A stretch of 42,329 bases of DNA, taken from a virus. Where the stretch lies: IMG/VR virus record IMGVR_UViG_3300035670_000475, positions 1 to 42,329 of that record; one strand, given 5' to 3'. The notes below the pieces were generated by a model, which was given only the letters and a program-made list of their open reading frames with translations, was not told where the DNA came from and searched no databases. Shown piece by piece: positions 14,133 to 18,406 of this stretch. Position numbers and translations under genes: made by a program. Each line of letters opens with the position of its first letter. Position 1 is the first letter of the stretch.

Positions 14133-14417
14133 TCATACCTGCTTGGGGGGTCGGCCACGGCGCGGCGCAGCGTCGGCCACGGGCATCAGCGCAGCGTGTA
14201 CCGCCGGGGCCAGCGCTTCGATGGTGCCCAGCACGTGCACCAGGTAGGCCACGGCTGCAGGGGGTACGCGCTTGCCCGTGGTCCACTTGCGCACCGTGGT
14301 GACCGGTGCGCCCAGGTATCGGGCCAGGCCGTCAACCGATAGGCCCAGCCGGGCGCGTAGGGCTTCGAAATCGGCGGGCGATGGGGTAGGGTAGGGGGCA
14401 GGGGTTTTTGTGTTCAT
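14133..14417 (-). CDS. Helix-turn-helix regulator
   Basis: A 94-aa protein. Residues about 16-60 (DFEALRARLGLSVDGLARYLGAPVTTVRKWTTGKRVPPAAVAYLV) form a classic Cro/C1-type HTH: LSVDGLARYLGAPVTTVRKW contains both helices. The C-terminus is Ala-rich and ends in RRGRPPKQV, an AT-hook-like basic tail. It is the last gene of the leftward GC-rich block, separated from the genes before it by a terminator-like hairpin, so it may be expressed by readthrough or its own weak promoter. Candidate repressor of the phage's own promoters. Confidence 0.82.
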   Translation of the reverse strand: MNTKTPAPYPTPSPADFEALRARLGLSVDGLARYLGAPVTTVRKWTTGKRVPPAAVAYLVHVLGTIEALAPAVHAALMPVADAAPRRGRPPKQV

Positions 14418-14439
14418 GGGGTCATTTTCCAGGGGGTTA

Positions 14440-14466
14440 AAAAGCCCCCGGGGTTAACCGGGGGCG
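14440..14466 (-). terminator. Intrinsic terminator upstream of the HTH gene
   Basis: On the minus strand GCCCCCGG-TTAACC-CCGGGGGC (14466-14445) followed by TTTTT. It sits between the 72-aa gene and the HTH gene and would attenuate transcription of the latter. Confidence 0.8.
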
Positions 14467-14492
14467 CGGGTGGCCACGGTGGCCGGGGGTTA

Positions 14493-14711
14493 CTAGGCGC
14501 GGGAAATAGTGTTCACGCGCTCCAGGCGGTCCATGCATTCGTCGCCCGTGGGCGGCGTGTCGGGGTTGATTTCCGATAATTGGGCGATGGTGGCCAGTTG
14601 GGCCCGGCGCTCGGCCAGGCGCTCAGATACCATGCGCAAAAACGGGTTTTCGGTGGCATCAGCGGCGCGGGTCAATTCCGCGTCGGTCATGGAATGATGA
14701 AAAAATGTCAT
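14493..14711 (-). CDS. 72-aa hypothetical protein
   Basis: Begins MTFFHHSMTDAELTRAADATENPFL and continues as a charged helix (RMVSERLAERRAQLATIAQL). The ATG at 14711 is chosen because it forms an ATGA overlap with the preceding stop; Met8 is an alternative start. Function unknown. Confidence 0.65.
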   Translation of the reverse strand: MTFFHHSMTDAELTRAADATENPFLRMVSERLAERRAQLATIAQLSEINPDTPPTGDECMDRLERVNTISRA

Positions 14712-14953
14712 CGGGCGCTATCCTCCACGTAGAACAAGTCGAAATTTTGCCCAATGATGGCCAGGGTTTTATTTGCGGTCCCCCGGGCGTGTTTGGCTTC
14801 GCGCATGTCAGCGATTGACTGCAGCGCGGCCACGGATTGACCCAGGGCATAGTGCAGCGCATCGATGCGCCCATAAAGCTCGGCGGTTGCAGTATCGCCG
14901 GCCATATAGGCCAGGCGCTCGGATTCGGTAGCAGTCAGTTTTTGGGTTTTCAT
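14708..14953 (-). CDS. 81-aa helical hypothetical protein
   Basis: Mostly alpha-helical by composition (LTATESERLAYMAGDTATAELYGRIDALHYAL), without a known motif. It follows the 113-aa gene at a 4-nt gap. Function unknown. Confidence 0.65.
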   Translation of the reverse strand: MKTQKLTATESERLAYMAGDTATAELYGRIDALHYALGQSVAALQSIADMREAKHARGTANKTLAIIGQNFDLFYVEDSAR

Positions 14954-14957
14954 GGCG

Positions 14958-15299
14958 TCAGGCTTTCAGTTTTTGAGCTTCGTTTAATACTTTGGAAAAT
15001 CGGTCTAATCCGATTCGGTCAACGGTTGAATCTAGGTCCGCTAGTGCAGCGGCCCGGGCTTGGGTGACAGTCAGCGTGCGCGATGATACGGGCATGCCCT
15101 TATAAGTGGCGGTTACCCGGCAAACCCGGTAACCGCCTACGGGGTCAGAAATAACCCAGTCACCACGGCCAGCGGCCACCGGTTCCCGGTGTAACGCTAA
15201 CCGCCAAGCTTCGGACCCGCGCATAAAAACGATGGGGTAATAATCGACGGGTTCCACAATACCATTAGCCCGGATCATTTGGAAAATTTGTTTTCTCAT
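14958..15299 (-). CDS. 113-aa hypothetical protein
   Basis: Contains MRKQIFQMIRANG, a beta-rich middle (DWVISDPVGGYRVCRVTATYKGM) and a helical C-terminus. It ends in -LKA and an adjoining GTCAGGCTTTCA-type sequence also present at the end of the next gene upstream, a local repeat. Function unknown. Confidence 0.65.
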   Translation of the reverse strand: MRKQIFQMIRANGIVEPVDYYPIVFMRGSEAWRLALHREPVAAGRGDWVISDPVGGYRVCRVTATYKGMPVSSRTLTVTQARAAALADLDSTVDRIGLDRFSKVLNEAQKLKA

Positions 15300-15303
15300 A
15301 ACG

Positions 15304-15984
15304 TCAGGCTTTCAAAATTGGAATTACTCGGCGGGCTTTGGCATCAGTCACCCGGGCGCGGGATCCGTGGGCGCGAAAACCCACGATAACGCGGCGGTCA
15401 GCGCGTGCGCATAGCCCGCATGTTTCGCAGGTTACGTCATCGCGGGTTTGCGCCGGGCAAACGATAATTGTCTGGCCGTCGGGGGTTTGGGTTTTCTCGG
15501 GCGTATCGATGGGGACAATGCACGTCAGGGGCAGCGATGAGACAGCGGCTAGCGCGTCAGCGTCGCCCGCGTCATCAGCCGATAGATTGACAGTAAACCC
15601 CCATTCGGTGGCGCATTGGGCCCAATGCAGCGCGTCAGCGCTTTTTTTGTGGGTATACGTAAAACCACGGCGCCCAATATTTGCCCGGACAATTTGACCC
15701 AGAGCGACGGGGTCCACGGCTTCGCCGGTGCCCGGTAAGTCCCCGGCCACATTGTGGCGCCATAGTTGACCCGGGGGCAGCGCGTCGATGGCTGCACAAA
15801 GCGCGGCCAGGTCACCCCCGCGCTCGGGCACTTTGTCCCAGGCCATACGGGTGTAGAAATCTTCAGCATAACAGTCGGCGCGGTAATGCGGGCAGGATTC
15901 GGGGCAGGTGGCCCGCTCGGAATATGTGACGGGGATTTTGCCGGTTTTGCTGTTCCCGCTCGAGCGGATGAAATGGTATTTCAT
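15304..15984 (-). CDS. GP88/DUF7227-like Cys-rich phage protein
   Basis: A 226-aa protein with two Cys clusters: CPESCPHYRADC (about 28-39) and CETCGLC (about 186-192), plus a conserved-looking WRHNVAGDLPG centre and a VIVGFRAHG end. This arrangement recalls the mycobacteriophage gene-product-88 family (GP88/DUF7227), whose biochemical role I do not know. The Cys clusters suggest metal or Fe-S binding. Largest gene of the GC-rich leftward block; overlaps its upstream neighbour by 4 nt. Confidence 0.7.
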   Translation of the reverse strand: MKYHFIRSSGNSKTGKIPVTYSERATCPESCPHYRADCYAEDFYTRMAWDKVPERGGDLAALCAAIDALPPGQLWRHNVAGDLPGTGEAVDPVALGQIVRANIGRRGFTYTHKKSADALHWAQCATEWGFTVNLSADDAGDADALAAVSSLPLTCIVPIDTPEKTQTPDGQTIIVCPAQTRDDVTCETCGLCARADRRVIVGFRAHGSRARVTDAKARRVIPILKA

Positions 15985-16265
15985 GCGGCCCCCTTATCGC
16001 GCAGTAATTGATTGATGCCGGCAACAAGTGAATCTAAATCACGCGCCCAGCGGTTCACGCCCCCGGTGTAGTCTTTCAAATGCTGCGCGGTTCGGTACAT
16101 GTAACCCAGCGAGCCGCAGGGTTCGGTGTTGACATAAACGATACGGTCGCCCAGCGAGATAAACCCGCTGCAGCCCCGTTTATTGTCGTTTACTCGAATG
16201 TTTTTCAAGTGCACATGGTGCACTGACGTAAACCGGTTTTTTAGTTTTGTGGAAAGAATCAGCAT
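15981..16265 (-). CDS. 94-aa hypothetical protein
   Basis: A basic N-terminal half with paired Cys (RGCSGFI, EPCGSLGYMYR) and a helical C-terminus. It is next to the GP88-like gene with an ATGA overlap, so the two are probably translated together. Function unknown. Confidence 0.65.
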   Translation of the reverse strand: MLILSTKLKNRFTSVHHVHLKNIRVNDNKRGCSGFISLGDRIVYVNTEPCGSLGYMYRTAQHLKDYTGGVNRWARDLDSLVAGINQLLRDKGAA

Positions 16266-16266
16266 T

Positions 16267-16572
16267 TCAAACCCCCTTGCGAGCGCTCACGCGCACGGTT
16301 GAATAAGGGACGCCGGTTTCGGTGAATTCATCTACTAGCGCGGGTGTTGCGCCCAGGTGCTCGGCGAGCGCTCGCCAGTTGACGATCACGCGCCCGGGGC
16401 AGTGACTGACAGCGGCGCGAAACTTGTCACCCTCCACGGCTTCGGCGCCGGAGAGAATCAGCGCTCCTTTGAAAATCTCGGCTTCGGTTTCTAGGTCCGC
16501 GATACTCGCTTTAATCGCGCCCAGGCGGTCAGCGGCAAATTTAAGGTCGATAGTTGGGTTCGGTGTTTTCAT
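16267..16572 (-). CDS. 101-aa phage hypothetical protein
   Basis: Residues about 10-45 form a coiled-coil-like helix (RLGAIKASIADLETEAEIFKGALI), then a beta-rich unit (GDKFRAAVSHCPGRVIVNWRALAEHL) ending TVRVSARKGV. This layout, helix then D-fold-like beta with VRVSARKG, is frequent in phages. Function unknown. Confidence 0.7.
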   Translation of the reverse strand: MKTPNPTIDLKFAADRLGAIKASIADLETEAEIFKGALILSGAEAVEGDKFRAAVSHCPGRVIVNWRALAEHLGATPALVDEFTETGVPYSTVRVSARKGV

Positions 16573-16604
16573 GGTGATTTGCTCCAGGTTTACAGATTAC
16601 GGGG

Positions 16605-16703
16605 TTACAAGGGAAAGAGGGCACCCAGCGAGTGCAGCAAGAGGGCAGCGAGTGCGAGCCCAATGGCCACGGCCAGGGCGATATCGGTGAAAGTGGATTT
16701 CAT
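16605..16703 (-). CDS. 32-aa single-TM micro-protein
   Basis: ATG at 16703 with AAAGG upstream gives MKSTFTDIALAVAIGLALAA and a further hydrophobic stretch, ending GALFPL. Almost the whole peptide is one transmembrane helix. The upstream initiation region (16701-16722) repeats that of the next gene (16940-16961) with one mismatch, which supports translation. Role unknown. Confidence 0.6.
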   Translation of the reverse strand: MKSTFTDIALAVAIGLALAALLLHSLGALFPL

Positions 16704-16753
16704 GGTGAATTACCTTTACGTGTGGCCCCCGGCTTACCGGGGACCGGGGTTGA

Positions 16754-16942
16754 TTAGCAGATGAATTCGGGGTGGCCAGTGACACCGAAAATGTCGGCGT
16801 ACTCACGAAGCGCGGCGGCGCTTTTTTTGGTACGGGCTGCGCGAATCAGTGCAGAGAGTGCACGGGCCACGAAATCAGGGCCTAACCCGGCGGCGCGGTA
16901 TTGTGCGATTTTGGTCACTTCGCGGATTTCTGATTTGTTCAT
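16754..16942 (-). CDS. 62-aa hypothetical protein, first gene of the leftward block
   Basis: Helical, opening MNKSEIREVTKIAQYRAAGLG and ending GVTGHPEFIC. It follows the extended -10 promoter at 16992-17022 by about 50 nt and so is the first gene read. Its ribosome-binding region is shared with the 32-aa gene. Function unknown. Confidence 0.68.
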   Translation of the reverse strand: MNKSEIREVTKIAQYRAAGLGPDFVARALSALIRAARTKKSAAALREYADIFGVTGHPEFIC

Positions 16943-16961
16943 GATGAATTACCTTTACGTG
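16940..16961 (-). repeat. Repeated initiation region (pair with 16701-16722)
   Basis: The 22-bp segments at 16701-16722 and 16940-16961 match at 21 positions and each contains an ATG and the ACGTAAAGG Shine-Dalgarno region of a small gene. A recent local duplication or a portable expression cassette is likely. Confidence 0.75.
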
Positions 16962-16991
16962 TTAGCCGGCCCAATTTGTGGCCGTGGGTGA

Positions 16992-17022
16992 ATTGTAGCA
17001 CAATGTTGGGCCATTGGGTCAA
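16992..17022 (-). promoter_or_regulatory. Extended -10 promoter of the leftward GC-rich block
   Basis: On the minus strand TTGACC (17022-17017), 19-bp spacer, TGC-TACAAT (-10 at 16997-16992). The long spacer is offset by the TGN extension. The -35 lies inside CCATTGGGTCA (17011-17021), the same core that is repeated as iterons farther right, so a protein binding that core would block this promoter. Confidence 0.6.
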
Positions 17023-17159
17023 GAATTATTTACTAGGTGTTTTCCCGGGGGTGTTCGATGTTGTTCATGTTGGCCATTGTGGGCCCAGGTGTTCACAGTG
17101 GCCATTGTTCCCAGCTTGGGCCATTGGGGCCATTGGGTTACCCAGTTTCTAGGGGTGCT

Positions 17160-17250
17160 CATTTTTTAAGCAACCAGTGACAAACGCACTCAAAATGTAC
17201 ATATGTAAATTTCAAAAAGACCATTTTTAAAAAATCGTAAATTCTCGTCT
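17160..17250. other. AT-rich stretch beside the iteron-like array
   Basis: About 90 bp far richer in A and T than the surroundings, with runs ATTTTTT, CATTTTTAAAAAATCG and the 10-bp palindrome TACATATGTA (17198-17207). It ends at GTCTC-GCGGGCGCG-GAGAC, an inverted repeat (17247-17265). Easily melted DNA next to repeats is the usual layout of a replication origin, but no initiator gene or experiment supports it here. Confidence 0.4.
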
Positions 17251-17306
17251 CGCGGGCGCGGAGACAGTTTGGGAGACTTTGCCTCTTTTTTAAGCAGCGC
17301 CCGGGG

Positions 17307-17495
17307 CCATTGGGTCAGGATTCAATAAACCCGCTCCCAATGGGTCAGAATTCAATAAACCCCGGCCCAATGGGTTAATCACCCAATGGCCCCCAATTGT
17401 CCAATGGGTCAGGATTCAATAAACCCCGGGCCATTGGGTCACCGGGTGACATGGTGGCCATTGGGTCACCCAGTAAACCCCGGGCCATTGGGTCA
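17307..17495. repeat. Iteron-like direct repeat array, core CCA(T/A)TGGGTCA
   Basis: Core starts at 17307, 17337, 17367 (variant ending TTA), 17401, 17431, 17458 and 17485, spaced 30, 30, 34, 30, 27 and 27 bp. Three units also share AGGATTCAATAAACCC or a one-base variant. Outlying copies: 17011-17021 (in the promoter), 17130-17140 and 17700-17710 (variants). A degenerate tail of TGGCCATGGATACCCGG follows at 17501 and 17526. No ORF in this region looks coding. Interpretation: binding array for a phage replication initiator or regulator. Confidence 0.75.
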
Positions 17496-17751
17496 CCCGG
17501 TGGCCATGGATACCCGGGCCCATGGTGGCCATGGATACCCGGCCCCCGTGGCCCCCGGTGGCCGGGGCTGCAGCGCTTCCCCCGGTGCCCGGGCCCGGTG
17601 GCCCGCCGGGCCGGAGGGGGGTGGGGCCCCAGAGCCGGCGGCGGCAGTAGACAAGGGTGGTCACCCAGACACCGCGAATCAAAAATCAAATTAAAAAACC
17701 CAATGGGTACAGGAACACTTTGGATACCGTGAACACCTTGGACACAAGGGA

Positions 17752-17766
17752 GTGAGTTCAACTCAC
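17752..17766. promoter_or_regulatory. Perfect palindrome upstream of late genes
   Basis: GTGAGTT-C-AACTCAC, a 7-bp perfect inverted repeat, 58 bp before the small terminase ATG. It has the form of an operator or activator site for late transcription. A TACACT (17812-17817) lies 8 nt before the ATG, the same geometry as the 9574-9587 pair, but no good -35 is present. Confidence 0.5.
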
Positions 17767-17824
17767 ATCCCCTGAAAAAATTAAAAATTTTTCCAAAATC
17801 CAAAATCGTCGTACACTCGGGCAC

Positions 17825-18406
17825 ATGACAAACACTCCCCTTCATCAGGGTGATCTGCCCAACTGGCTGATCCCCGAAGACAAGGATGTTGACCCCGACC
17901 AACCGGACAACGTTCACCCACTTGCCAAGCAGGACCATGCACAACTCGTTGCTGAGGGAGAACGGGCGAGGCGCGAGCTCGAGCTGGTGGCCTATGAGGC
18001 CGTGTTCGAGCGTGCGCTCTTAGACATCGCCGCTGGCCAGCCCCTCACGACCACGATCGAGAAGGACTACCGGGACATCAGCTACCAGCGCATGCTCGCT
18101 TGGATACACAAGGACGAGAATCGCAAAACCCGGTACTACGAGGCCCAAGAGATTGGCGCTGAGGTGGTGGCCTCGCAGATGCTCACCATCGCCGATGCCG
18201 ATGACCTGCTCGAAGACGTGGCCCGTAGCACCTTGCGCATCAACACGCGCAAGTGGCTCTTGGGCGTGTGGAACAGAAAACGGTTTGGCGAGGTCAAGCA
18301 GATCGAGCAGAACGTCACTGTCGATCTGAGCCAAGCGATGCTTGCGGCCCAGCAGCGAGCCGATGCCCGGGTGATCGACGTTGCCTCGAGAGTGATCAAT
18401 GAGTAA
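17825..18406 (+). CDS. Terminase small subunit
   Basis: A 193-aa protein placed 8 nt before the large terminase, overlapping its start. The N-terminus is Pro/Asp-rich; the middle has LTTTIEKDYRDISYQRMLAWIHKDENRKTRYYEAQEIGAE, a DNA-binding HTH as in phage TerS; then DDLLEDVARSTLRINTRKWLLGVWNRKRFGEVKQ. It should recognise the packaging site and regulate the large subunit. No Shine-Dalgarno precedes the ATG, so translation may be leaderless. Confidence 0.85.
   Translation: MTNTPLHQGDLPNWLIPEDKDVDPDQPDNVHPLAKQDHAQLVAEGERARRELELVAYEAVFERALLDIAAGQPLTTTIEKDYRDISYQRMLAWIHKDENRKTRYYEAQEIGAEVVASQMLTIADADDLLEDVARSTLRINTRKWLLGVWNRKRFGEVKQIEQNVTVDLSQAMLAAQQRADARVIDVASRVINE

Follow-up and report, generated by a model that had tools for sequence, protein, structure and literature searches.

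The intergenic region upstream of terS

The DNA analyzed here, which we call the window, is the whole 42,329-bp length of an IMG/VR virus record with a podovirus-type gene set, including genes for a primase-polymerase/DUF3987 helicase, a DNA polymerase, an exonuclease, an ssDNA-binding protein, a terminase, a portal protein, and a capsid protein. A gene-free interval of 882 bp (positions 16943 to 17824), which a first-pass annotation of the sequence had put at about 880 bp, lies between a cluster of small leftward genes and the cluster that starts with terS (Table 1). We treat the leftward genes as one operon on the basis of their orientation and spacing. The last of them encodes HTH94, a small helix-turn-helix (HTH) protein; among its cluster neighbors, searches of Pfam, PHROGs, NCBIfam, and PADLOC recognized no function. 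One neighbor, at 15304 to 15984, is a DUF7227 protein (E value of 1.3e-72) that is 78% identical in the relative DSL-LC05, though TerL identity is just 45%.

Table 1. Coordinates of genes, repeats, and other sequence features in and around the gene-free interval of the window
Feature	Position	Strand	Remarks
HTH94, 94-aa Xre-type HTH protein (PF13560)	14133..14417	-	Candidate binder and putative autorepressor; its gene ends the leftward cluster
Other leftward-cluster genes (72, 81, 113, 226 [DUF7227], 94, 101, and 62 aa)	14493..16942	-	Control proposed
Predicted leftward promoter	16992..17022	-	-35 TTGACC at 17017-17022, 19-bp spacer, -10 TACAAT at 16992-16997; 10/12 consensus matches
Gene-proximal putative operator TGGGCCATTGGGTCA	17007..17021	.	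Overlaps both the -35 region and the spacer of the predicted leftward promoter
Isolated dyad-type site GGGGCCATTGGGTTA	17126..17140	.	Further weak repeat at 17117
AT-rich segment	17160..17250	.	Highest AT content of any 91-bp stretch in the record
Dense portion of the array with eight dyad-type cores (17305, 17335, 17365, 17381 [reversed], 17399, 17429, 17456, 17483)	17305..17495	+	
GC-rich block with G-run, 19.9% AT	17510..17660	.	Belongs to the conserved element upstream of terS
Conserved element GGGTGGTCACCCAGACACCGCGAATCAAAAATCAAA	17655..17690	+	Flanked by the G-run and the terS-proximal dyad
Single perfect core ACCCAATGGGT near terS	17698..17708	.	At a near-fixed distance from the conserved element in relatives
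terS, Sf6-like terminase small subunit (PF20901)	17825..18406	+	Heads the rightward cluster

The first-pass annotation had described seven cores in this interval at 27- to 34-bp spacing, and we recovered all of them: CCAWTGGGTYA starts at 17307, 17337, 17367, 17401, 17431, 17458, and 17485, at distances of 30, 30, 34, 30, 27, and 27 bp. Two more cores start at 17011 and 17130, and all nine matches found in the 42,329 bp searched are confined to 17011 to 17495, against a chance expectation of 0.08 on average and 1 at most in 100 dinucleotide shuffles of the whole record. The core makes up half of a dyad, TGACCCAnTGGGTCA. It had been taken for a direct repeat because in the window, as in the related loci L009 and L012, one half has decayed at most sites, the window copies mostly combining a perfect half-site (TGGGTCA) with a degraded one. 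Once degenerate copies are counted (ACCCAnTGGGT with two mismatches at most), the number of sites rises to 11, at 17009 to 17708, and a reversed copy at 17381 to 17391 sits inside the 34-bp gap. The AT-rich stretch noted beside the array is likewise real: with 71.4% AT compared to 45% for the genome, it ranks among the top 0.01% of windows of 91 bp. On the terS side, the RNA structure predicted for the GC-rich block is no more stable than that of shuffled sequences (z scores of 0.15 and 1.37). Many relatives carry an extended -10-like sequence, GTGATACACT, a few bases 5' of the terS start codon (in the window, GTCGTACACT, within 17800 to 17824), a position that suggests a very short or absent leader.

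Conservation of the array and its surroundings in relatives

We compared the window with 80 loci from viral contigs chosen as TerL relatives; these are metagenomic contigs and are related to one another. In these relatives, the gap upstream of terS holds arrays of ACCCAnTGGGT in both orientations, often as the full 15-bp TGACCCAnTGGGTCA, with exact dyad cores in 10 of the 17 records searched and perfect or near-perfect dyads at the position of the window array in L010, L052, and L064. DSL-LC05, for which the family Luchaoviridae has been proposed (PMC10611076), is among the relatives with a dyad array upstream of terS. A de novo palindrome scan recovered the same core in many relatives, while the palindrome expectation-maximization runs were partly uninformative, with low-complexity motifs winning. 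Searching for the exact 26-base unit gave L009 as the sole match, and a DNA similarity search of a phage collection with the array region gave none. No array was found in P26218, BA3, and VvAW1, nor in the ends of the phages AF, UFJF_PfDIW6, and Tr60_Ab31, in which genes stand close upstream of terS.

Most of the 17 loci that we profiled share one layout, which runs from one to three gene-proximal sites through an AT-rich peak, a dense cluster of sites, a GC-rich stretch, one isolated site, and an AT-rich leader to terS; L016, L044, and L053 fit it poorly. In an alignment of 19 leaders, the G-run, the element GGTGGTCACCC...CACC.CGAA, and the isolated site keep near-constant spacing. The G-run and the GGTGGTCACCC...CACC element, which lie at 17611 to 17690 of the window directly upstream of terS and are kept in relatives, are candidates for a pac or cos site or for a leader element. 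A related G-run followed by a different downstream sequence is found in a sister clade, upstream of another type of terS. Just to the left of the G-run, the sister-clade gaps of L143, L149, and L133 carry short satellites and repeat motifs that change fast beside near-identical terS genes.

The dyad itself is confined in a similar way across genomes: in 11 records, each genome has a single cluster of matches, and nearly all matches outside it fall in coding DNA. The arrays of L021, L027, L030, and L034 are built from other motifs, and there the isolated site likewise departs from ACCCAnTGGGT in its base pattern. Scanning viral contigs for two dyads returned 16 stretches, among them six new arrays (L215, L218, and L223 to L226); four of these six contigs encode a TerL that is 67 to 70% identical to sister-clade TerL. 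Pairs of dyad cores 37 bp apart, outside any array, occur in L216, L217, L219, L221, L222, L227, and L228.

Promoter overlap, helical phasing, and the origin reading

The gene-proximal dyad of the window lies within a predicted promoter of the leftward cluster, and this arrangement recurs. Among leftward σ70-like sites that fit the consensus at 10 or more of its 12 positions in 18 genomes, a dyad center lies in 10 of 13 (2.39 expected; P = 0.0005), and at 11 or more positions in all six (1.04 expected); on the plus strand, the one such site also holds a dyad (P = 0.22). This test used circular shifts within the 1.5 kb upstream of terS and the Escherichia coli consensus, which may not be that of the host; L015, which is close to L016, and L035, whose upstream stretch is short, were excluded. 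In the six contigs found by the dyad pair alone, the dyad occupies all four strong leftward promoters and neither of the two rightward ones. In L013, L026, L027, L033, L036, and L091, a separate -35 TTGACA is followed by a 16- to 17-bp spacer filled by the dyad; the window, L012, and L052, with a 19-bp spacer and a -35 TTGACC that shares bases with the dyad, are a weaker case. By eye, L044 (2811 to 2860) and L061 (3650 to 3735) have a second putative operator inside the promoter of another leftward gene (TTGCAT-16/17-TATACT or TACATT). When no promoter threshold is applied, dyads show no excess in promoter-like spans (33 of 196 sites compared to 28.2 expected), so that promoter overlap explains the gene-proximal site and not the whole array. 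A promoter scanning tool restricted to spacers of 16 to 18 bp reported no promoter or terminator in 16900 to 17860.

The sites are also helically phased. When the gaps between adjacent sites of 22 genomes are pooled, the period that fits them best is 10.25 bp (r = 0.33, n = 91, P = 0.001), and counting each gap length once per genome changes this little (r = 0.31, n = 79, P = 0.0012); these P values are optimistic because gaps are partly inherited. Such phasing would place bound dimers on the same side of the helix, suggesting contacts between them, and it bears out the earlier proposal that the regular spacing marks a protein-binding array on one face of the DNA.

The same proposal took the array for a candidate replication origin. 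In such a reading, the dyads would be iterons, and an initiator, HTH94 or another phage protein, would melt the AT-rich segment and load the phage primase-helicase. Helical phasing and the restriction of the sites to one region fit this idea, as does the adjoining AT-rich segment: in each of 11 records, the 60-bp window of the region with the highest AT content ranks in the top 1.1% of its own genome, yet intergenic DNA is often AT-rich. The lambda origin is located inside the O gene. Several dimer-bound-type sites beside an AT-rich tract, as described for the O-dimer iterons of lambda-type origins (PMC7466680), are a likeness to the window, whose dyads differ in that they overlap predicted promoters and in that no O-like initiator is recognized. 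Indeed, profile searches found no known initiator among the small genes of the window, in line with the earlier remark that no initiator of known type is encoded nearby. In the sister clade, small proteins with DnaA domain IV are encoded in the leftward clusters (PF08299 in 13 of 50 records searched), but PF08299 has no match in the window or in any HTH94 genome searched, and L131 and L133 combine a near-identical DnaA-like protein with different repeat motifs, which also contradicts DnaA-like proteins as the determinants of sister-clade motifs. The domain IV of these proteins stands at the C-terminal end, for instance in L090, L131, L137, L193, L199, L201, and L203. Cumulative GC skew is inconsistent and lends the origin no support, with a maximum near the array in three of eight records, a minimum in one, and neither in four. 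Together with the gene-proximal dyads inside leftward promoters of many relatives, which is the anatomy of an operator, these results lead us away from the origin assignment, which we now regard as unlikely.

Dense dyads at a single locus also resemble partition sites, and the array could be a parS-type, centromere-like site or a structural repeat expansion that binds no protein; repeats do expand in this place, since sister-clade arrays by the G-run include short satellites (L143 and L149). Yet ParB_N (PF02195) is present in none of 25 records and a phage integrase in 1 of 25, which leaves a plasmid or lysogenic state without support, and both the conservation of the dyad across diverged genomes and its phasing speak against passive expansion. 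We consider this explanation highly improbable.

HTH94 as the proposed binder of the dyads

The first-pass annotation had suggested that a protein binding the repeats might be found among the small genes at 14133 to 16942. This part of its proposal finds support, with HTH94 as the best candidate by its association with motif and array, while the role in origin binding that came with it does not. HTH94 matches PF13560 above the cutoff and is syntenic in relatives. When one locus per contig and loci of at least 9 kb were retained (74 of 170), array and HTH94 occurred together in 13, the array alone in 2, HTH94 alone in 6, and neither in 53 (Fisher's exact test, P = 2e-8); the two array records lacking HTH94 (L009 and L015) both end before the place of its gene. 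The contigs L223, L224, and L226, which were found by motif, encode HTH94 homologs at 78 to 85 bits. In six bacterial contigs with dyad pairs, the retrieved stretch contains no HTH94 match.

The association extends to a single residue. In the structural model of HTH94, helix 3 comprises residues 39 to 47 (mean pLDDT of 87.7), which places Lys44 on the recognition helix. Across the 20 genomes with both the gene and the region, at least two dyads are present in 14 of 15 genomes with Lys44 and in none of the 5 others (Fisher's exact test, P = 0.0004), or in 12 of 13 compared to 0 of 5 when L016 and L026 are removed (P = 0.0007); these P values are optimistic, given that Lys44 was chosen after inspection and that the genomes are related, with the close pairs L016/L052, L025/L026, and L033/L036 kept in the counts. 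The exception is L012, one of the Lys44-family records that have few dyads or none; it has no dyad and only half-sites. The three HTH94 homologs found by motif all carry Lys44. It counts against HTH94 as the binder that the recognition helix varies at positions other than Lys44 while the dyad core stays constant. L037 and L025 are 70% identical in the HTH domain and 87% identical in TerL, but L037 has RGW instead of KKW in the helix, and its array motif has nothing in common with that of L025.

The array lies directly 5' of terS, and an alternative is that TerS binds the dyads at a pac or cos site and that packaging starts at the G-run element. The near-constant spacing between this element and one dyad in the 19 aligned leaders would agree with such a role, as would the related G-run that precedes another terS type in the sister clade, and window-type terS homologs co-occur with the array as well. 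In the 20 genomes, however, motif similarity correlates more strongly with HTH94 identity (r = 0.56) than with that of TerS (r = 0.42) or TerL (r = 0.35), and in partial Mantel tests, each protein being controlled for the other, the HTH domain retains an association (r = 0.31, P = 0.038) that TerS does not match (r = 0.16, P = 0.14). In the sister clade, near-identical TerS N termini go with different motifs (L131/L133; L143, L149, L156, and L158), and recognition by TerS would leave the dyads in leftward promoters unexplained. We therefore hold it to be very unlikely.

HigA2 and MqsA autoregulate their own operons, and repressors of the Aca and HigA kind accumulate, occupy their operator, and block their own promoter. 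The folds nearest to the HTH94 model come from these proteins, with HigA2 (5jaa) at a Z score of 9.5 over 70 residues, Aca10 (7xi5) at 8.1 over 57 residues, and MqsA (3fmy) at 8.1; Aca10, Aca2, and Aca1 are among the best fold matches, and among PDB sequences, too, Aca10 matches the HTH94 profile best (E value of 0.00025). HTH94 shares with HigA2 and MqsA the HTH fold but differs from them in that no toxin partner is recognized, and no antitoxin model scores above its cutoff for HTH94. Aca10 offers more likenesses: HTH94 is a small Xre-type HTH protein whose gene stands at the end of its proposed target cluster, and the window site, like the Aca10 operator AATACGCTCATTGAGCGTATT as it is described in PMC9410881 (a 21-bp inverted repeat that overlaps the -35 and -10 elements), is an odd-length dyad with a CA-n-TG center within a promoter, which for the window is a predicted one. 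The differences are the weak sequence similarity (25% over 57 residues) and the number of sites, about 11 over 700 bp in the window compared to one or two; moreover, the four libraries named above, which may lack acr models, recognized no anti-CRISPR gene in the cluster. Looser parallels are the CI repressor of phage 186, for which a wheel, distal sites, and possible higher-order complexes are described in PMC8053113, and the mycobacteriophage stoperators, where one phage repressor is likewise served by many sites. Those are lysogeny repressors, however, and stoperators are described as spread over the genome, whereas window-type sites are clustered, with outside matches mostly in coding DNA.

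Based on the dyads in promoters, the co-occurrence of array and gene, the tracking of Lys44, and the HigA/MqsA/Aca-type folds, we infer with a probability of roughly two in three that the repeats are dyad-symmetric operators of HTH94, a putative autorepressor of the leftward cluster. HTH94 would be made from the leftward promoter and then accumulate, with one dimer binding per dyad of consensus TGACCCAnTGGGTCA. Binding to the gene-proximal site would block RNA polymerase and turn its own cluster off in a negative feedback, whereas the phased distal sites would probably support cooperative dimer-dimer contacts and an extended complex in the gap that separates the leftward cluster from terS; the lone site of the terS leader may link this complex to the late genes. 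It counts against this operator reading that a simple repressor needs no array of about 11 sites and that several of our tests were framed after inspection of the sequences. The number of evenly phased sites is the unusual feature, and it is without close precedent among the systems compared here. A bolder version, which we find tentative and on the whole rather unlikely, is that the array forms a single nucleoprotein switch in which HTH94 on some ten dyads shuts the early promoter and gates late functions (terS expression, packaging, or replication) via the fixed dyad by the G-run, with dyad and recognition helix as an exchangeable module of coevolving specificity within the phage group.

If the repeats are operators of HTH94, an apparent origin becomes a switch for early genes that can be tested, with a named candidate binder and a matching site, in a group of freshwater podoviruses that is largely uncultured. 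The small early genes of the cluster, being under the proposed control of an Aca-like repressor, would be candidates for antidefense functions. A phased array of about ten sites paired with a 94-aa repressor would also make a good system in which to study how repressors cooperate and how their DNA specificity evolves.
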